Source: Aquibium sp. A9E412 (GTDB lineage Bacteria > Pseudomonadota > Alphaproteobacteria > Rhizobiales > Rhizobiaceae). From it: DNA of 64,000 nt. Position numbers and translations under genes: made by a program. Shown here one piece after another: positions 8,558 through 33,920 of the stretch (the stretch's first letter is position 1; every line of letters begins with the position of its first letter). Location of the stretch: assembly GCF_030398335.1 (NCBI RefSeq), contig NZ_JAOAOP010000007.1, positions 1 to 64,000 on the forward strand. Reading direction: 5' to 3'. Below the pieces are notes generated by a model, which was not told the DNA's origin, searched no databases, and saw only the letters and a program-made list of their open reading frames with translations.

Positions 8558-9489
8558 CGCGGCGGAGGCGGACGCGTTGCACGCGGTGTTGGGGCATCGG
8601 CCGGGGTCGCGTCAAGCCGCCGCCCGCCGTCGCGCTGCACCAGCGCGATCCCGGCGACGACCAGCGCGGCTCCCGCCGCCTCGGGCAGCCCGAGCCGCTC
8701 GCCGTAGAACGCCGCGCCCATGGCGAGACCGAGGATCGGCACCAGGAAGGTGAAGGCGTTGGCACGGTTGAGCGGCACGCGCCGCAGCGCCGCCGCCCAC
8801 AGCCAGAAGGCGAGCGCGGAGCCGAACAGCGCCAGCGTCAGGACGACGAGCGCGAACTCGCCGCTCCATGCGAGCGCGGCCGGCCGTTCGGTCAGCCCCG
8901 CGAGCAGCGCCAGCGCCACGGCGCCGACGAGAAGCTGCGCGCCCATCGCCATCGCCGGATCGCTGCGCCCGGCCAGGCGCTTGATGGCGATGTTGCCGAC
9001 CGATACGCCGGCGGCCGCCAGCATGACGTAGCCGAGGCCGAGCACCGCGCCTTCCACGCCGGCCGCCAGGCCCGGCCACGCGATCAGCGCGATGCCGGCG
9101 AAACCGGCCGCGAGGCCGAGCCAGCCGGCCGCGCCCAGCCGCTCGCCCAGGACGGCGTGCGCCAGGACGGCGGCGAGGATCGGCTGCGTGTTGGCGACCA
9201 CCGTGGCGATGCCCGGCGCGACGAACTCCGCGGCGTGGAACATGCCGAGAAAGCCGAGGCCGGTGGCGCCGAGCCCGGCAATGGCGACCAGGCCCCAGGC
9301 GGCACGGCCGGCCGGCAGCCGGCGGCCGAGCGCGAGGCCGAGCGCGACGAGCACCGCGCCGGCGATCGCCGCGCGCAGCGCGGCGAAGGTGACGTGCGGC
9401 GCCAGGTCGAGGCCGGCGGCGATCAGCGGGTAGCATGCCGCCCACAGCACCATGACGGCGACGAGCCGCAGCGCGTCGCCGGGCGTCAT
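8554..9489 (-). CDS. EamA/DMT-family transporter
   Basis: The 311-residue protein has about ten transmembrane segments arranged as two EamA halves (first half through TVVANTQPILAAVLAHAVLGERL, second through LTLALFGSALAFWLWA and FLVPILGLAMGAAFYGERL). Both copies of the family's Pro/Glu motif (VxNTQP..GER, LVPI..GERL) are visible. The substrate cannot be told; relatives export amino acids, metabolites or drugs. The ATG at 9489 is chosen; a GTG at 9501 would add four residues, and neither has a clear ribosome site. It lies 34 bp after the kinase gene and is probably the last gene of that operon. Confidence 0.85.
   Translation of the reverse strand: MTPGDALRLVAVMVLWAACYPLIAAGLDLAPHVTFAALRAAIAGAVLVALGLALGRRLPAGRAAWGLVAIAGLGATGLGFLGMFHAAEFVAPGIATVVANTQPILAAVLAHAVLGERLGAAGWLGLAAGFAGIALIAWPGLAAGVEGAVLGLGYVMLAAAGVSVGNIAIKRLAGRSDPAMAMGAQLLVGAVALALLAGLTERPAALAWSGEFALVVLTLALFGSALAFWLWAAALRRVPLNRANAFTFLVPILGLAMGAAFYGERLGLPEAAGAALVVAGIALVQRDGGRRLDATPADAPTPRATRPPPPR

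Positions 9490-16783: not shown

Positions 16784-16791
<8 letters not shown>
15157..16791 (-). CDS. otsB: Fused beta-phosphoglucomutase-like HAD and trehalose-6-phosphate phosphatase
   Basis: The 544-residue protein carries two HAD domains. Domain 1 (about residues 25-270) is beta-PGM-like: D37 and D39 in FDLDGVVTRT, a large helical cap, VSSSRNARAVLAAAGL (Ser motif), KGKPAPDLFLEAARRLG (Lys motif) and VFEDAVSGVEAG. Domain 2 (about 295-544) is OtsB: D306 and D308 in LDYDGTLTPI, VSGRDRADV, YAGSHGFDI, KTYGKKVFELRP and YLGDDVTDEDAF. Domain 1 should turn beta-glucose 1-phosphate from GH65 into glucose 6-phosphate; domain 2 should finish trehalose synthesis begun by OtsA. The start is the ATG at 16791 (GGAGGG upstream), overlapping the ppsA stop by ATGGCTGA; the longer frame to 16854 would run inside ppsA. 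Such fusions are known in some bacteria, e.g. mycobacterial OtsB1-like proteins, but are not common. Confidence 0.9.
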
Positions 16792-19213
<2,422 letters not shown>

Positions 19214-19302
19214 GTCGGTCTCCGTGCGGGGGATGTCGCGGCCGCCGCCGGCGGCCGGCGGAGGACTGGCCGCCATCCTGGCCGGCCGGCCCGCAGGGGT
19301 CT

Positions 19303-19316
19303 TTGATCTCGGTTAA
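19303..19316. promoter_or_regulatory. FNR-type box A upstream of ppsA
   Basis: TTGATCTCGGTTAA: TTGAT, 4 bp, GTTAA. It lies 90 bp upstream of the ppsA ATG inside the 260-bp gap between otsA and ppsA. The same 14 bases occur again upstream of otsA (21064), which is hard to explain by chance in sequence this GC-rich. Confidence 0.72.
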
Positions 19317-19473
19317 GGGGGCGGCATTCGCGCTCCCTGCCGCGCTCCCGGCGCGCCACCGCACGGGCCGCGCGCGCGGACCCGCCGCGGCTCCCGCATG
19401 GCCGCACGGGCCGTCCCGGCGATCCTGCCGCATGCGGGCGGCGGCGGGCGCGCCCGCCCGGCCGCCCCGCGCC

Positions 19474-20958
19474 CTACAGCGCCCGGCGCGCCGCGTCCGT
19501 CCGCGCCTCGGCGCGTCCGTCGCCGCGGCCCTGCCGCGAGAAGGCGAGCACCGGCACCTGCCGCCGCGCCGGCACCGCGCGCGCCATCCCGGCGGAGACG
19601 AGGGCGGCGAGGAAGTCGCGCCGCCAGCGGTGCACGTCGTGCGCGCGCAGCTCTGCGATCATCTCGGCCCAGCGCGCGCGCCGCTCCGCGTGCGGCATCG
19701 CCAGCGCCCGGCGCATCGCCCGGGCGAGACCGTCGACGTCGTAGGGGTTGACCAGCAGCGCCCCCGACAGCCGTTCGGCGGCGCCGGCGAACGTCGACAG
19801 GACGAGCACGCCGGGATCGGCCGGGTCCTGCGCGGCGACATACTCCTTGGCGACCAGGTTCATGCCGTCGCGCAGCGGCGTCACCAGGCCGACCCGGCTC
19901 AGCCGGTAGAGCGCGGCGAGCCGCTGCTGGCCGAAGGCGCGGTTGATGTAGCGCACCGGCGTCCAGTCGAGCTCGCCGAAGCGGGCGTTGAGGCGGCCCG
20001 ACTTGATGTCGAGCGCGCGCTTCAGCTCGGCATATTCGGGGATGTCCTCGCGCGAGGGCGCGGCGATCTGCAAGAGGAAGATGCGGCGGCGCAGCTCCGG
20101 CGCCGTCTCGAGCAGCCGCTCGTAGGCGTCGAGGCGCTGCGGCAGCCCCTTGGTGTAGTCGAGCCGGTCGACGCCGATCATGCCGAGCCGCTCGGCGAAG
20201 GCCGCCCTGAGGGCGCCGTCGGCGCGGCTGTCGCCGGCTTCGGCGGCCAGCTCGGCGAACCGCGCCGTGTCGATGCCGATGGGAAACACGCCGACCGAGA
20301 AGCGGCCGTCCGGCGTATGCACCGTGCCGTCGGCGTCGACCCGCCAGCCGAGCCGCTGCCCGACATAGGCGGCGAAGTTTCGCCGGTCGTTCTCGGTCTG
20401 GAAGCCGACCAGGTCGTAGGCGGCCAGCGCCTCGACCAGCGCGCGATGGCCGGGCAGCGCCTCGAGCACGTCGGGCGACGGGAAGGGAATGTGCAGGAAG
20501 AAGCCGACCGGCACCGTCATGCCCAGCCGGCGCAGCTCGCGCGCCAGCAGGAAGAAGTGGTAGTCGTGCACCCACACGCAGTCGTGGTCGGCCGCCGCCT
20601 CCACCACGGCGCGGGCGAAGCGCGCATTGACGGCGCGATAGGTGGCGAACTCCTGCGGGTCGTAGCGCAGAAGGTCTGTGCGGCCGTGGAACAGCGGCCA
20701 GATCGTGCGGTTGGCGAAGCCGAGATAGTAGCCGTCGCACTCCGCCTGGCTGAGCGGCAGCGCTGCGACCTTGTAGGCGCCCGCCGTGTGGAAACGCAGC
20801 CGGTCGCCGGCCGCGCAGTCCGGCCGGCCGTCCCAGCCGATCCAGGTGCCGCCGAGCTCGTTCAGCGCCGCCCCCAGCCCCGTGGCGAGACCGCCGGCCG
20901 ACGCCTTGGCGCGATCGATCGGCGGCAGACGGTTCGAAACGATCGCGACGCGGCTCAT
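19474..20958 (-). CDS. otsA: Trehalose-6-phosphate synthase (GT20)
   Basis: This 494-residue protein is OtsA along its length: [22 protein letters not shown] with the UDP-glucose loop, [78 protein letters not shown], and the nucleotide-sugar motif [16 protein letters not shown]. It makes trehalose 6-phosphate from a nucleotide-glucose and glucose 6-phosphate; the OtsB domain at 15157-16791 completes the route. The C-terminal ~35 residues are basic and non-conserved. Start ATG at 20958 preceded by GGAGGAGC; the longer frame to 21036 is rejected. An FNR-type box lies 106 bp upstream, so it appears to have its own promoter. Confidence 0.95.
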
Positions 20959-21063
20959 GGCTGCTCCTCCTCGACAAGGACATGGGCTGCGGGCGGCTTC
21001 GTTGCGGGCATGGCCCGCCTGCCGCCTCTCGTGCATCCCTATCCGTCCGCGCAGCCCGCTGCC

Positions 21064-21077
21064 TTGATCTCGGTTAA
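21064..21077. promoter_or_regulatory. FNR-type box B upstream of otsA
   Basis: TTGATCTCGGTTAA, identical to box A. It is in the 177-bp gap between the Rieske gene stop and otsA, 106 bp before the otsA ATG. The adjacent TGATATCA is a separate small palindrome of unknown meaning. Confidence 0.72.
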
Positions 21078-21135
21078 TGATATCACGGGTTGCATCAAAA
21101 AACGCGCGGCAGGTCCACTTCGTTCCCGCGCCGGC

Positions 21136-21702
21136 TCAACCGATGCGCAGCCGCGCCTCGCCGGAAAAGCCGTAGGGCGGCAGATCGAGATTGCGCGGCG
21201 CCGGGCCGCGCCGTACCCGCCCGGCCAGATCGTAGACGGACCCGTGGCAGGGGCAGAACCAGCCGCCGTGCCGGCCGAGCGGATCGCCGTCCTTCTGGCC
21301 GAGCGGGATGCAGCCGAGATGGGTGCACACGCCGATGACGACCAGCCATTCGGGTCGCTGGACCCGCTCGGCGTCTGTCGCCGGGTCGATCAGCTCGGAA
21401 TTGTCGTCGTCGGCGCGCGCGCTGGCGATCTGCGCCTGCGTGCGCCGCACCACGAACACCGGCCGGCCGAGCCACACCGCCGTCAGCCGCTCGCCCGGCT
21501 CCATCGGCGTCAGGTCGAGCTCGACCGTCGACAGGGCGGTGACGTCGGCGCCCGGCCGCAGGCTGTCGACGAACGGCCACAGCGCCAGTCCCGTGCCGAC
21601 GGCCGCGGCCGTGCCGGTGGCGAGATAGAGGAAGTCGCGCCGGCCGCGATCCTCCGGCGGCGCCGCGCCGCGAGCCGGCTCAGTCGCCGTCCGCCGCGTC
21701 AT
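21136..21702 (-). CDS. Rieske [2Fe-2S] protein (PetA-like), orphan
   Basis: This 188-residue protein has an N-terminal twin-arginine-type anchor (DRGRRDFLYLATGTAAAVGTG) and a C-terminal Rieske domain. Cluster ligands are C126 and H128 in CTHLGC and C150 and H153 in CPCHGS; C131 and C152 form the usual disulfide. It resembles the iron-sulfur subunit of the bc1 complex, but no cytochrome b or c1 gene is in the window. Its start at 21702 lies 23 bases inside the cytochrome c gene, so the two are coupled; an upstream ATG at 21723 is possible. It may serve an alternative bc1 complex or a dedicated electron-transfer pair under low oxygen (inference). Confidence 0.88.
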   Translation of the reverse strand: MTRRTATEPARGAAPPEDRGRRDFLYLATGTAAAVGTGLALWPFVDSLRPGADVTALSTVELDLTPMEPGERLTAVWLGRPVFVVRRTQAQIASARADDDNSELIDPATDAERVQRPEWLVVIGVCTHLGCIPLGQKDGDPLGRHGGWFCPCHGSVYDLAGRVRRGPAPRNLDLPPYGFSGEARLRIG

Positions 21703-22210
21703 GATCGTCGTCCTCGCCGGCATCGTGCGCGATCAGGTCGCGGATCGCCGGCGGGATGTCGTACGCCGCGAACGTCGCCTGGGCGGCGGGGTCGTGCGCG
21801 AAGGCGATGATGTCGGCCAGTTCCTGGCCGCTCAGCTCGATCTGCGCGCCGAGCTCCTCGCGCTGCAGATAGACCATCGCCTCGGCGCCGCGCCACATGC
21901 GCGCGGCGAAGGCGAAGGGGTTCATCGGCAGCGCCATCCCGGCCGCGTCGAGCGGCGTGGCATCGTCGCCGCCGATCCCGTTGACCGCGTGGCACACCAC
22001 GCAGCCCTTGCCGGCGAACAGCGCCGCGCCGCGCGCGGCGTCCATCTCCGGCATCACCAGGCCGGGACTGACGAGCAGCGGTGCGTCGGCGTGCCGGTCG
22101 GCGGCGGCCGGCGACCCGGCGAACACGGCCAGCACGAGCGCTGCCGCGCCGGCGAGCGCCGGTCGGCCGGCGGCGTTTCTGCGGCTGGGGGTCTGACTGG
22201 GGGTCTGCAT
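21680..22210 (-). CDS. Secreted class I c-type cytochrome
   Basis: The 176-residue protein has a Sec signal peptide (hydrophobic stretch PALAGAAALVLAVFAGSPAAA, likely cut after AAA) and one haem site, C70-C73-H74 in GKGCVVCHAVNG. A Met ligand is probably among GMALPMNPFAFAARMW. The C-terminus ends in an Asp/His-rich tail (DAGEDDDHDAADGD) that could bind metal. Start ATG at 22210 after AAGGAGA. It lies 79 bp after the CBS-BON gene on the same strand and overlaps the Rieske gene, suggesting a three-gene transcript CBS-BON, cytochrome c, Rieske. Confidence 0.87.
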   Translation of the reverse strand: MQTPSQTPSRRNAAGRPALAGAAALVLAVFAGSPAAADRHADAPLLVSPGLVMPEMDAARGAALFAGKGCVVCHAVNGIGGDDATPLDAAGMALPMNPFAFAARMWRGAEAMVYLQREELGAQIELSGQELADIIAFAHDPAAQATFAAYDIPPAIRDLIAHDAGEDDDHDAADGD

Positions 22211-22289
22211 GTCCGGTCTCCTTCGGCTGCGGCCCGGCGCGGCATGCACGGCACGCCGCAACCGGACCGGGCGGCCGGCCGTGCCGGCC

Positions 22290-23003
22290 TCATTCCGCCC
22301 ACAGCACACTGCGCACCATGGGCGACAGGACGCCGACATTGTTCTCCACGCGCGTGATGCCGGCGGTGCGCTCGGCGGCGACCTGCACGGCCTGCTTCTC
22401 GGCGGCACTCTCCACCGCGCCCCAGATCTGCGCCACGCCGTCGCTCACCACCATGTTGAGGAACTCGCGCCGCACGCCGGTCTCGGCGATCGCCTCTTCC
22501 AGCGCCTGCCGGACGGCGAGGTCGTCGCCCGAGGGCGCCGCTTCGGAGCGTGCGCCGCCGGTCGCCGCGACCAGCCCGTGCAGCAGATTGGCGCGGCTGA
22601 CGATGCCGACGAGCCGGCCGTCGGTCAGCACCGGCACGCGCTTGATGCGGTTGCGCTCGAGCAGCGTGGCGATCTCCGCCAGGTCGGTATCCTCCGCCAC
22701 GGCGACCACGTCGCGCGTCATCACGTCGGCGGCGGTCGTGCCGTGCGTCTTGACGTAGTCGCGCGCCTGGTCGGCGGCATCGGCGACGAGGAACAGCCAC
22801 CACGAACGCCGCCGTTCGGCGCCGGTTTCCGGCCGGCGCATCAGGTCGCCCTCGCTGACGATGCCGACGAGCCGGCCGTCGCCGTCGACCACCGGCACGG
22901 CGCTGATGCGCCGCTCGACGAGGCGCTGCGCGACCTCGCGCACCGGCGTCTGCGGCTGCACGGTCACCACCTCGCGGGTCATCACGTCACGCGCTTGCAG
23001 CAT
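22290..23003 (-). CDS. CBS-pair and BON domain protein
   Basis: The 237-residue protein has two CBS motifs (about residues 5-62, VMTREVVTVQPQTPVREVAQRLVERRISAVPVVD; and about 92-148, VMTRDVVAVAEDTDLAEIATLLERNRIKRVPVLTDGRLVGIVSRANLL). They are separated by a linker with WWLFLVADAAD and followed by a C-terminal BON domain (about 160-232, VRQALEEAIAET ... VVSDGVAQIWGAVESAAEKQAVQ). CBS pairs bind adenosyl compounds and sense energy state; BON domains may bind membranes or lipid. Similar proteins belong to FixK/FNR regulons in rhizobia and to hypoxic response in mycobacteria. Start ATG 23003 after GGGAG. Box C lies 88 bp upstream. Confidence 0.9.
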   Translation of the reverse strand: MLQARDVMTREVVTVQPQTPVREVAQRLVERRISAVPVVDGDGRLVGIVSEGDLMRRPETGAERRRSWWLFLVADAADQARDYVKTHGTTAADVMTRDVVAVAEDTDLAEIATLLERNRIKRVPVLTDGRLVGIVSRANLLHGLVAATGGARSEAAPSGDDLAVRQALEEAIAETGVRREFLNMVVSDGVAQIWGAVESAAEKQAVQVAAERTAGITRVENNVGVLSPMVRSVLWAE

Positions 23004-23090: not shown

Positions 23091-23104
23091 TTGACGCACG
23101 TTAA
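23091..23104. promoter_or_regulatory. FNR-type box C in the CBS-BON/small-gene divergent gap
   Basis: TTGACGCACGTTAA (TTGAC, 4 bp, GTTAA), 88 bp from the CBS-BON start on one side and 112 bp from the small membrane gene at 23216 on the other. It could serve either or both directions. Confidence 0.68.
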
Positions 23105-23386: not shown

Positions 23387-23737
23387 TCAGGCGTGCGGCA
23401 GCTCGCAGAAGCAGGCGATCAGCGCGTCGACCGACAGCGTCGGCGTGCCGAGCCGCACATCGACGCCGGCGCTGGTCAGGCGCCGGCGCGCCGGCTCGGG
23501 GATGAAGCCGCACACCAGACCGCCGACCCGCAGGCGCACCACCAGCCGGCAGAGCGCTGCCGCCGTGCGCGCCTCGTTGGCGACATAGCGGGTCGGCCCG
23601 CCCGGACCCTCGACCAGGAGCAGGGCCTCGCACTTGCCGAAGAACGGACACAGCGTCGGCCCGGCGGCCGCCGTCATCACGGTGACGGCGAGCCGTTGGG
23701 GCGGGACATCCGGGACGAGGGGATCGGCCATGAGCAT
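23387..23737 (-). CDS. NifX/dinitrogenase Fe-Mo cofactor-like domain protein
   Basis: The 116-residue protein fits the small NifX/DiNase FeMo-cofactor fold: LAVTVMTAAAGPTLCPFFGKCEALLLVEG at the N-terminal strand, and a C-terminal GGLVCGFIPEPARRRLTSAGVDV, SVDALIACF, the family's usual 'GxxP-x-LxxxGI-V' and 'V--AL--' ending. It has five Cys, which could bind a metal cluster. No nitrogenase gene is near, so it is more likely a general Fe-S or metal-cluster carrier. The start is taken at 23737 (MLMADPL); 23731 is also possible, with no clear ribosome site. Box D lies 53 bp upstream. Confidence 0.65.
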   Translation of the reverse strand: MLMADPLVPDVPPQRLAVTVMTAAAGPTLCPFFGKCEALLLVEGPGGPTRYVANEARTAAALCRLVVRLRVGGLVCGFIPEPARRRLTSAGVDVRLGTPTLSVDALIACFCELPHA

Positions 23738-23789: not shown

Positions 23790-23803
23790 TTAAGCTCGAT
23801 CAA
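23790..23803. promoter_or_regulatory. FNR-type box D upstream of the NifX-like gene
   Basis: TTAAGCTCGATCAA (minus strand TTGAT, 4 bp, CTTAA), 53 bp upstream of the NifX-like start. One of two boxes in the same divergent gap; the TTAAG half is the weakest half-site in the set. Confidence 0.62.
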
Positions 23804-23855: not shown

Positions 23856-23869
23856 TTGACCTGGATCAA
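23856..23869. promoter_or_regulatory. FNR-type box E upstream of the small secreted gene
   Basis: TTGACCTGGATCAA is the best match in the window to the FNR/Anr consensus TTGAT-N4-ATCAA, with one base difference. It lies 81 bp before the ATG at 23950 and 119 bp from the opposing NifX-like start. Confidence 0.78.
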
Positions 23870-23949
23870 TTGCGCTGCCGGTCCGTTCGCCTATCATCCA
23901 CGTTCGTGCCAATGCCATCGTGCTTTGGCGTCACGCTCGGTGAAGGCGC

Positions 23950-24285
23950 ATGATGCGATTGTTCGCTGCCCTGCTTCTGCTCGCGGCCGTCCTCACGGGA
24001 CTGAGCCTGCAGGGCCCCGACTCCGGCCTGGCGCCCGAGGAGGGCACGACGGCGCTCTCGGCGGTCGAGGCGGCGCTGCTGCCCGCCGCTCTGGTCGAGA
24101 CGGCCGGCAGCGAGCGCACGCCGCAGTGCCACCACCTGGTCTGCTCGCAGATTCCCGTCGCATCGGAAAGGACCGCGCTGCACCGCGCCATGGGCCGTCC
24201 GGCGACCGGCAAGCCTGCCAACGAGCGCGACCGGCCGATGATCGATCTGGAGCGCGATCCGCCCGTCCCCCGACCGGTCGCCTGA
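23950..24285 (+). CDS. Small secreted protein of unknown function
   Basis: The 111-residue product has a clear Sec signal peptide (MMRLFAALLLLAAVLTGLSLQ). It is followed by a mature part containing CHHLVCSQ, a possible metal or disulfide site, and an acidic/Pro-rich C-terminus. I do not recognise a family. The ATG at 23950 follows GAAGGCGC; the next ATG at 23953 would lose one residue. Box E is upstream, and the FNR gene follows on the same strand after 174 bp. Confidence 0.62.
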   Translation: MMRLFAALLLLAAVLTGLSLQGPDSGLAPEEGTTALSAVEAALLPAALVETAGSERTPQCHHLVCSQIPVASERTALHRAMGRPATGKPANERDRPMIDLERDPPVPRPVA

Positions 24286-24459: not shown

Positions 24460-25281
24460 ATGGCGACTTCTCCCCCTCGCCCCACACCCCCGGCCGCGGA
24501 CTGCACGCGCTGCCGCGCCCGCGTCGACGGGCTTTGCCAGACCGCGCGGCCCGGCATGCCGCCGGCGGTGGCCGCCTACAAGTCGTGCGACCGGCACATC
24601 GCCGCCGGCCAGGACCTGTTCGGCATCGGCCAGCGCAGCGACGCCGTCTACAACGTCGTCGACGGCTGGGTCTATCTCTACCACCTGCTTGAGGACGGCC
24701 GGCAGCAGATCCTGCATTTCGCCCTGCCGGGCGCCATGCTCGGCTTCCACCCGGTGCGCGGCGTGCCCGCCACCTATGGCGTGCAGGCGCTGACCGACGC
24801 GGTGGTGTGCGTCATCCCGCGCGACAATCTCGACCGGCTGTTCGGCGATCATCCCGCCGTCGCCGTCACGCTGGCCGGGCTGATCGCCCGCGACCGCAGC
24901 CTGACCTACGGCCATCTCACCAGCATCGGCCGCCATCGCGCGCGCGAGCGCGTCGCCCAGCTGCTGCTCGAGCTGTTCATCCGGGCGCGGGCGCAGTGGC
25001 CGGGCCATCGCGTGGAGGAGATGCAGCTGCCGCTGACCCAGGAGCACATCGGCGACGCCACCGGGCTGACCGGCGTGCACGTCAACCGCGTGCTGCGCGA
25101 GCTGCGCCACGACGGCATCGCGGAGTTCCACTATCGCCGCCTGCGCATCCTCGACCCCGACCGGCTGGTCGACGTGGCGGGCATCGACCCGCACCTGTTG
25201 ATGCAGTGGACCGCGCAGGAGGGCATGGCGGACGACGGCTGGAGCGCGGCACTGGCGCCGCGCGTGCGCGCGGTCGCCTGA
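24460..25281 (+). CDS. FNR-type oxygen-sensing Crp/Fnr regulator
   Basis: The 273-residue protein has an N-terminal Cys cluster, cyclic-nucleotide-type sensor domain, dimer helix (HRARERVAQLLLELFIRARAQ) and C-terminal winged helix. Cysteines C15, C18 and C26 (C-x2-C-x7-C, the spacing of Rhodobacter FnrL as I recall it) and C117 in DAVVCVIPRDNLD, aligned with E. coli C122 (MVCEIPFETLD), supply a full [4Fe-4S] set. An extra C43 follows. The recognition helix reads TGLTGVHVNRVLRELR, whereas FNR has TVETISRLL: the Glu that contacts the TTGAT half-site is Val and the Ser is Asn, while the key Arg is kept. The start at 24460 (MATSPPRP) follows AAGGAG. It is surrounded by eight FNR-type boxes and is probably their regulator. 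Confidence 0.9.
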   Translation: MATSPPRPTPPAADCTRCRARVDGLCQTARPGMPPAVAAYKSCDRHIAAGQDLFGIGQRSDAVYNVVDGWVYLYHLLEDGRQQILHFALPGAMLGFHPVRGVPATYGVQALTDAVVCVIPRDNLDRLFGDHPAVAVTLAGLIARDRSLTYGHLTSIGRHRARERVAQLLLELFIRARAQWPGHRVEEMQLPLTQEHIGDATGLTGVHVNRVLRELRHDGIAEFHYRRLRILDPDRLVDVAGIDPHLLMQWTAQEGMADDGWSAALAPRVRAVA

Positions 25282-25317: not shown

Positions 25318-26250
25318 TCAGCGGGCGTCGCCGGCGCCGGCCTCGGCAACCACCCGGGTGCCGGCCCGGCCTTCGAGGATGGCGAGCGCGTCGTCGAGCG
25401 CACCGATGCCGGCCAGCCCGCCGGTCGCCGCCGCGAAGGCGCAGGCCGCCTCCACCTTCGGCCCCATCGAGCCGGCGGGAAAGTCCGCGCCGTCGAGCGC
25501 ATCCGGCGAGGCCTGCGCGATCGGCCGCTGCCGCGGCGTGCCCCAGTCGCGGTAGACCGCATCGACATCGGTCAGCATGAGATAGGCGTCGGCAGCGAGC
25601 CCCTGCGCCAGCAGGCCGCCGACGCGGTCCTTGTCGATCACCGCCTCGACGCCGACCAGGCCGCCGTCGTCGCGGCGCACGACGGGAATGCCGCCGCCGC
25701 CGCCGCAGATCACGATCACCCCCTGCTCGACGAGCAGCCGGATGATGCCGAGATCGGGGATCGCCAGCGGCCGCGGCGAGGCGACGACGCGGCGGAAGCC
25801 GTCGCCGTCCGGCGCCACGATCCAGCCGCGCCGGTCCGCCAGCGCCTCCGCCTCGGCCTTCGGATAGACCGGGCCGATCGGCTTCGACGGCGCGAGGAAG
25901 GCGGCGTCGCGCGGGTCGACCTCGACCTGGGTGAGCAGCGTGGCGACGCGCGGCCCGTGCGGCAGCGCGTTCTCCAGCTCCTGCTCGATCAGATAGCCGA
26001 TCATGCCCTCCGTCTCCGCCCCCAGGACGTCGAGCGGATAGGCCTCGTCGGGCCGGTATGCCGCGCCCTGCAGCGCCAGCAGCCCGACCTGCGGCCCGTT
26101 GCCGTGGCAGATGACGACGCGGTGGCCGGCTTCGACCACCGCGGCGATGGCGGCGGCGGCGCGGCGCACATTGGCGCGCTGGTTCTCCGCCGTCGGCGCC
26201 TCGCCGCGGCGCAGCAGCGCGTTGCCGCCGAGCGCGATGACGACCAGCAT
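25318..26250 (-). CDS. arcC: Carbamate kinase
   Basis: The 310-residue amino-acid-kinase-fold enzyme ([72 protein letters not shown]) is ArcC along its length. It makes ATP from carbamoyl phosphate and ADP, the energy-yielding last step of the arginine deiminase pathway. The ATG at 26250 begins two bases after the arcB stop (TGAGCATG), so it is translationally coupled. It is convergent with fnr. Confidence 0.95.
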
Positions 26251-26252
26251 GC

Positions 26253-27254
26253 TCACGACCCCAGCGTGGCGACGAGCAGCGCCTTGATCGTGTGCATGCG
26301 GTTTTCCGCCTGGTCGAACACCACCGAGGCGGACGATTCGAACACCGCCTCCGTCACCTCCATGCTGTCCAGGCCGAACGTCTGGAAGATGTGCTCGCCG
26401 ACCTCGGTGTCGCGGTTGTGGAAGGCCGGCAGGCAGTGCATGAACTTGGCGTGCGCGTTGCCGGTGGCACGCATCAGCTCGCCGGTCACCCGGTAGGGCT
26501 CGAGCAGCCGGATGCGCTCGGCCCACACCGCCTCCGGCTCGCCCATCGACACCCACACGTCGGTGTAGACGTAGTCGCAGCCCGCGACGACGGCTTCGGC
26601 GTCCTCGGTCAGCGTCACCTGCCCGCCGGTTTCCGCCGCGATCTGCCGGCAGCGCGCGACGAGCGCCTCCTCCGGCCAGCAGGCGCGCGGCGCGCCGAGC
26701 CGCACGTCCATGCCGATCAGCGCCGCGCCGATCATCAGCGAGGTGCCCATGTTGTTGCCGGCGTCGCCGACGAAGGCGAAGGCGACGTCCGACAGGTGCT
26801 TGTGGGTGTATTCGCGCATGGTCAGCAGGTCGGCGAGGATCTGCGTGGGATGGAAGTCGTCGGTCAGCCCGTTGTAGACCGGCACCCCGGCATGGGCGGC
26901 GAGCGCCTCGGCGCGGTCCTGGCCGAAGCCGCGATACTCGATGCCGTCATACATGCGGCCGAGCACGCGGGCGGTGTCCTTGATCGATTCCTTGTGGCCG
27001 ATCTGGCTGCCGGTCGGCCCCAGATAGGTGACGTGCGCGCCCTGGTCGTAGGCGGCGACCTCGAAGCCGGTGCGCGTGCGCGTGGAATCCTTCTCGAAGA
27101 TCAGCGCGATGTTCTTGCCCTTCAGCCGCGGCTGTTCGTAGCCGCCATACTTGGCCTGCTTGAGGGCGGCGGCGAGCCGCAGCAGGAAGCGGATCTCGTC
27201 GGGCGAGAAGTCGAGCAGCTTGAGGAAGCTGCGTCCCTTCAGGTTCACGGGCAT
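26253..27254 (-). CDS. arcB: Ornithine carbamoyltransferase, catabolic
   Basis: The 333-residue enzyme shows the carbamoyl phosphate site [17 protein letters not shown], the ornithine-site and C-terminal motif [16 protein letters not shown], and [12 protein letters not shown]. Length and the [28 protein letters not shown] stretch fit the catabolic ArcB group. It splits citrulline with phosphate into ornithine and carbamoyl phosphate for ArcC. It sits between arcA (25 bp) and arcC, so the operon role is clear. Confidence 0.95.
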
Positions 27255-27279
27255 CGGTGCTCTCGTTTCGGCTGGCGGG

Positions 27280-30144
<2,865 letters not shown>

Positions 30145-30158
30145 TTAACGCCGGTTAA
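30145..30158. promoter_or_regulatory. FNR-type box G upstream of the copper-ATPase operon
   Basis: TTAACGCCGGTTAA, a perfect 5-bp palindrome around a 4-base spacer, 102 bp upstream of the ATG at 30260 and 49 bp from box F on the divergent side. Both half-sites are TTAAC, so a strict FNR (TTGAT) might bind it poorly. Confidence 0.65.
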
Positions 30159-33906: not shown

Positions 33907-33920
33907 CTAATCTGTGTCAA
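33907..33920. promoter_or_regulatory. FNR-type box H upstream of the Spy-like gene
   Basis: CTAATCTGTGTCAA (CTAAT, 4 bp, GTCAA), 74 bp upstream of the ATG at 33994. The weakest match of the set (first base C instead of T). Confidence 0.52.

Follow-up and report, generated by a model that had tools for sequence, protein, structure and literature searches.

FNR and its relatives FnrN and FnrL are [4Fe-4S] oxygen sensors that recognise TTGATN4ATCAA, and the main contacts between FNR and the FNR box are made by Glu209, Ser212 and Arg213 (PMC4505428). Across the CRP/FNR family, the residue at position 181 (CRP numbering) correlates with the base at position 3 of the half-site (PMC1274295). This correlation and CprK of Desulfitobacterium are precedents for altered specificity. 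CprK senses chlorophenols and has the symmetric dehalobox TTAAT-N4-ATTAA; its Val192, equivalent to FNR Glu209, touches the pyrimidine opposite position 3 and has been linked to TTAAT specificity, which is interpreted as the avoidance of cross-talk with FNR (PMC2610375). HcpR2 and NssR, which control NO-related regulons, have Pro, Ser or Gln at position 181 and symmetric boxes with an A in the half-site (GTAAC or TTAACnnnnGTTAA), with the Gln181 protein NssR using TTAACnnnnGTTAA (PMC1274295). In the rhizobial FixK-FnrN cascade, a canonical regulator stands upstream of a second Fnr-type regulator, and both tiers share one anaerobox (PMC7888657).

Here we describe a Crp/Fnr-family regulator encoded in a 64,000-nucleotide stretch of the genome of Aquibium sp. 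A9E412 (contig NZ_JAOAOP010000007.1, positions 1–64,000), hereafter the window. The regulator resembles FNR, FnrN and FnrL in predicted fold, N-terminal cysteines, central cysteine and predicted class II promoter position, but has Val and Asn in place of Glu209 and Ser212, and its predicted boxes contain a TTAAY half. Like CprK, it has Val at the FNR Glu209 position, and its predicted boxes contain A at half-site position 3, though usually in only one half. Its Fe-S cysteines and its mixed boxes set it apart from CprK. With HcpR2 and NssR it shares a residue other than Glu at position 181 and an A in the predicted half-site, although that residue is Val and the boxes are not typically symmetric. 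A canonical regulator is likewise predicted upstream of it, as in the FixK-FnrN cascade, but here the second tier would have a box of its own.

The regulator and its recognition helix

The regulator gene, its diagnostic codons and its immediate neighbours are as follows.

24460–25281, + strand: Crp/Fnr-family regulator P0001, with an FNR/FnrN-type sensor and a Val-type helix (translation; PF00027, PF13545)
24502–24537, + strand: codons for C15, C18 and C26 (CX2CX7C), predicted [4Fe-4S] ligands (translation, alignment)
24808–24810, + strand: codon for C117, which aligns with the central Cys of FNR (QALTDAVVC versus QALETSMVC; alignment)
25072–25089, + strand: GVHVNR codons, recognition-helix residues 205–210 (translation, alignment)
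23950–24285, + strand: 111-aa open reading frame, supported by coding-like composition (coding potential only), between the canonical box at 23856 and the regulator
23387–23734, − strand: NifX-like gene (dinitrogenase FeMo-cofactor fold; weak PF02579 match), conserved beside the regulator

The 273-aa regulator (ORF 24460–25281) is preceded by a ribosome-binding site, AAGGAG, at ~24448 and falls within the Crp/Fnr superfamily, with matches to PF00027 (E 2.5e-16) and PF13545 (E 7e-17). Its AlphaFold model (pLDDT 80) finds its best predicted fold match in A. fischeri holo-FNR (Z 24–25 over 229 residues), and FixK2 of Bradyrhizobium is the top sequence match with a solved structure. The three N-terminal cysteines and the central cysteine that characterise FNR, FnrN and FnrL are all present (C15, C18, C26 and C117). 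Against the NCBIfam FnrL equivalog model NF045989 the protein scores 100 bits, below the cut-off of 300. Of 18 loci compared, 13 have the NifX-like gene as a neighbour of the regulator. Called open reading frames placed similarly to the 111-aa frame also occur in several ortholog loci.

The helix lies in the context LT-GVHVNR-VLREL, and a gap-free alignment to FNR V208-E-T-I-S-R213 pairs Val206 with Glu209, Asn209 with Ser212 and Arg210 with Arg213. The E--SR signature of FNR, FnrN and FnrL helices is thus replaced by Val206, Asn209 and Arg210, and the alignment bears out an earlier sequence-only reading of this DNA, which had proposed Glu to Val and Ser to Asn substitutions in the helix. At the equivalent position in CprK, a Val needs T or C (PMC2610375), consistent with A and G both being tolerated on the opposite strand; as judged from sequence, the regulator fits the position-181 rule of the CRP/FNR family. 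The orthologs found across the Alphaproteobacteria all have the helix x-V/I-H-x-N-R. In more distant relatives with the same helix (VHVNR or SVHVNR, from Sphingomonas and gammaproteobacteria), the upstream and nearby regions contained no TTAAY-type boxes or mostly canonical ones. The VHVNR helix alone was therefore rejected as a predictor of TTAAY boxes, and these relatives suggest that the helix is permissive and not sufficient. The genome also encodes two other Crp/Fnr proteins with Val-type helices, L009 (SLVHTNK) and L004 (TVHLNR), on contigs C110 and C11.

Boxes in the window and their predicted promoter position

The sequence-only reading had listed TTGAT, TTGAC, TTAAC, TTAAT, TTAAG and CTAAT as half-sites in the window, and every one of these was located. 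The candidate boxes and the genes of the predicted regulon are given below.

19303–19316, − strand: Val-type box TTGATctcgGTTAA, upstream of the PEP synthase (ppsA) gene, which is on the − strand (pattern scan)
21064–21077, − strand: Val-type box TTGATctcgGTTAA, upstream of otsA, with a −10-like TAGGGAT (pattern scan)
23091–23104, − strand: Val-type box TTGACgcacGTTAA, upstream of the CBS-BON gene, with −10 CAGATT and a predicted start at ~23056
23790–23803, − strand: degenerate Val-type box TTAAGctcgATCAA, upstream of the NifX-like gene, with −10 CAATCT
23856–23869, + strand: canonical FNR/FixK box TTGACctggATCAA, upstream of the regulator operon (pattern scan)
30083–30096, − strand: Val-type box TTGACggagATTAA, upstream of the arginine deiminase operon (pattern scan)
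30145–30158, no strand assigned: symmetric Val-type box TTAACgccgGTTAA (TTAAC-GTTAA), with the arginine deiminase operon on one side and the P-type ATPase gene on the other
33907–33920, + strand: weak candidate CTAATctgtGTCAA, within an LTXXQ-family gene or immediately ahead of it (gene start uncertain)
16784–23003, − strand: genes for PEP synthase, OtsA, a Rieske protein, a cytochrome c and the CBS-BON protein (predicted regulon)
25318–30011, − strand: operon for an arcD-like permease, arginine deiminase, ornithine carbamoyltransferase and carbamate kinase (predicted regulon)

Exact matches to TTRAYN4RTYAA number six in the window, compared with 0.03 expected from Markov-1 simulation. The boxes of ppsA, otsA, the CBS-BON gene and the NifX-like gene each have a −10-like hexamer at the expected place, while the arginine deiminase promoter is weaker. 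For PEP synthase, the predicted −10 is CAGGAT at 19275–19280 and the predicted start is ~19268; for otsA and arcD, a box centre at about −41.5 would put the starts near 21029 and 30048. The canonical box TTGACctggATCAA is followed at the correct distance by a −10 element, TATCAT, at 23892–23897, with a predicted start at ~23904. No halorespiration gene was recognised among the annotated genes of the window.

The TTAAY boxes are preceded by TCT and followed by AGA, flanks that canonical boxes of the same loci lack. They are asymmetric, usually with one G half and one A half as in TCTTTGATCTCGGTTAAG, and the TCT flank is stronger at the G half. By composition, 57 boxes are mixed, 6 have two A halves and 24 have two G halves, an excess of mixed boxes over random pairing (chi-square about 12) that a relaxed homodimer alone would not explain. 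A fixed promoter-distal placement of the A half was considered and rejected, with counts of 24 versus 17 by gene direction and 33 versus 21 by flank.

We considered promoter position using 52 non-redundant sites, oriented by their flanks and with near-identical contexts removed. Counted from the site start, 30 of the 52 have A at +38 (p 2e-8) and 25 of the 52 have T at +42 (p 9e-6), an enrichment in both cases, and the A(+38)..T(+42) pair occurs 17 times compared with 2.3 expected. These bases are the predicted −11A and −7T of the −10 element, which places the predicted site centre at −41.5. This is the position of a class II activator, assigned here from predicted rather than mapped start sites. 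Rhizobial activating anaeroboxes occupy a similar fixed place, at −32 to −34 by the counting of that study (PMC7888657).

Distribution of the boxes within and across genomes

In the 4.28-Mb genome, TTRAYN4RTYAA has 27 sites compared with 8 for a reversed-pattern control. All five sites with a TTAAY half lie within the window and none is found among the 21 sites outside it (Fisher p = 7e-5), every one of which is TTGAY-N4-RTCAA. A TCT-flanked pattern with a relaxed core has five matches in the genome, four of them in the window. The genome encodes about nine Crp/Fnr proteins, and the search for a second gene with a VETISR helix, suggested by the sequence-only reading, found one: the paralog L007 has exactly this helix and the same cysteine pattern as the regulator. 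Another paralog, L001, is FixK-like, with an IETVSR helix and without the cysteines. The 14-kb contig of L007 contains six boxes, all canonical, and all candidate sites on the L007 and L001 contigs are TTGAY-RTCAA, so that the TTAAY sites are not easily attributed to these two proteins.

A search of 60 other genera of the same family yielded no close ortholog. Orthologs are instead spread across the Alphaproteobacteria, in ~27 loci at 51–69% identity that keep both the helix and the box tCTTTGAYCNNGRTTAAg; they were retrieved with an alignment query, a single-protein query having returned none. Tepidamorphus (67% identity), Aestuariivirga, Roseomonas, Tistlia, Novosphingobium, Afipia and Bosea are among the genera that carry them. 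A scan of 590 kb in 36 loci, comprising these orthologs and the nearest more distant relatives, gave 109 boxes compared with 1 in a reversed-pattern control, counts that come from a fixed-pattern collection in related loci and are not fully independent. A TTAAY half occurs in 77 of the 109, with one such half in 72, two in 5 and none in 32. Four whole genomes show clustering of TTAAY boxes around the regulator (7 of 8 genome-wide in Tistlia, 7 of 14 in Novosphingobium, 3 of 6 in Roseomonas and 4 of 11 in Bosea; p 1e-7 to 1e-17), where the Bosea p value was computed with 12 sites and the recount of 11 has no material effect. TCTTTGAYN4RTTAA occurs at close to background frequency over 385 alphaproteobacterial genomes, and among the matches listed it clusters only in the Aquibium genome.

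The most widely shared members of these loci are the regulator, the P-type ATPase, the NifX-like protein and a PEMT-like protein, and no other transcription factor is conserved to the degree of the regulator across the loci compared. In many orthologs (L028, L035, L037-L041 and L043-L050), from Afipia, Bosea, Roseiarcaceae, Hyphomonas, Sphingobium and Hyphomicrobiaceae, the Fe-S cysteines are absent while the xVHVNR helix and the boxes are kept. Oxygen sensing is therefore not general in the clade: the DNA reading predicted from helix and boxes is conserved, the predicted sensing is not. DNA specificity would have been retained while the oxygen-sensing cysteines were lost.

The arrangement of box types around the regulator gene suggests a cascade. 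Canonical boxes lie just upstream of the regulator in 14 of 24 cases, compared with 9 of 63 for TTAAY boxes (p 8e-5). In the window, TTGACctggATCAA at 23856 and TTAAGctcgATCAA on the NifX side are 66 bp apart; in Bosea, which carries TTAATttcgATCAA at the place equivalent to TTAAGctcgATCAA (23790), the same pair is 63 bp apart. The canonical site at 23856 probably belongs to another FNR/FixK protein. A canonical box ahead of the regulator, paired with a box on the NifX side, suggests that the regulator is itself switched on by a canonical FNR/FixK and in turn controls the other genes of the cluster.

A proposed local network and competing readings

With a probability of roughly 0.78, we consider P0001 to be a low-oxygen activator of the FNR/FnrN type with diverged DNA reading, serving a local regulon beside the canonical FNR of the same cell from a promoter that is itself under FNR/FixK control. 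In this mechanism, with Val in the place of a Glu that requires G:C at half-site position 3, either TTGAY or TTAAY would be accepted. A canonical FNR/FixK would first switch the regulator on through the canonical box in its promoter, and the regulator's own Fe-S cluster may provide a second oxygen check. From class II sites at −41.5, the regulator would activate a local survival cluster that includes the arginine deiminase pathway, PEP synthase, trehalose synthesis, the NifX-like protein and CBS proteins. Since the operator usually carries one TTAAY half beside a TTGAY half, together with TCT/AGA flanks, canonical FNR/FixK should bind it poorly, leaving a private channel. The regulator thus probably controls a network of its own alongside that of standard FNR, and the specificity is probably a conserved, insulated and divergent one within a single FNR clade, under canonical FNR/FixK control.

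The sequence-only reading had matched the Glu-less helix to half-sites in which G is often A, and had supposed that protein and site drifted together. The match stands, and is strengthened by the co-occurrence of site and regulator in ~27 ortholog loci, the rarity of the site elsewhere and the precedent of CprK Val192. The notion of loose drift does not, because the box is conserved, asymmetric, flanked by TCT/AGA and placed at −41.5.

The TTAAY boxes could instead be degenerate FNR boxes bound by the VETISR FnrL-like L007 or the IETVSR FixK-like L001, with the Val-type protein acting elsewhere or merely co-located. Both paralogs are present in the genome, most boxes retain one perfect TTGAY half, and activating anaeroboxes of FixK/FnrN lie at a similar promoter position (PMC7888657). 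We nevertheless regard this as unlikely, as canonical boxes occur genome-wide and yet TTAAY boxes are confined to the window, where they have flanks of their own, and they track the Val-type gene across genomes. A promoter element, or the site of a different regulator in the cluster rather than of an FNR paralog, might also account for the TTAAY half, as many loci have the flanking AGA on the promoter-proximal side. This is hardly plausible given the 5-4-5 spacing and −41.5 position, both typical of the Crp/Fnr family, an A half that is not attached to one side, and the lack of conservation of other transcription factor families across the loci.

The excess of mixed boxes raises the question of whether two proteins share an operator, with a Glu-type FNR/FixK subunit on the TTGAY half and a Val-type subunit on the TTAAY half. 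Proteins of both types are encoded in the genome, and the stronger TCT flank on the G half would agree with such a heterodimer, which on an obligately asymmetric operator would make a single 14-bp site an AND gate for two regulators. We know of no precedent for it, and judge it very improbable: the A half may lie on either promoter side and symmetric TTAAC-GTTAA boxes occur, as at 30145. The simplest reading of the mixed boxes is that one A is enough to exclude Glu-type regulators and that GC-biased mutation removes the second, a combination that yields mixed boxes as well.

In the literature searched, which covered few subscription journals, we found no prior description of this regulon or of a Crp/Fnr protein that combines this helix with this box. 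If the proposed activator is correct, about two dozen alphaproteobacterial loci would provide a natural example in which an oxygen-type regulator follows a separate DNA code from the canonical FNR/FixK next to it. As the discriminating residue and the discriminating base can both be named, insulation between paralogs could be tested directly by means of a single point mutation and a few promoters. The proposal also predicts that, in poorly studied bacteria, the genes for arginine deiminase, trehalose and PEP synthase are controlled under low oxygen.

Several further observations were made in the compared loci. In Tistlia, a sigma-factor-like ORF (L030 11017–11658, identified by eye) lies beside two copies of the regulator, and similar proteins occur in three loci. 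Gammaproteobacterial SVHVNR regulators (L061, L063, L067, L069, L070 and L076) have one or two TTGATTTAAATCAA-type boxes at ~−150 and ~−215, and Cocleimonas, with an NVHVNR helix, has tandem TTAAC..ATTAA boxes at ~−126 and ~−200. The relative L023 (helix TPIHINR) has a symmetric TTAACctggATTAA at 8871–8884, upstream of its gene.
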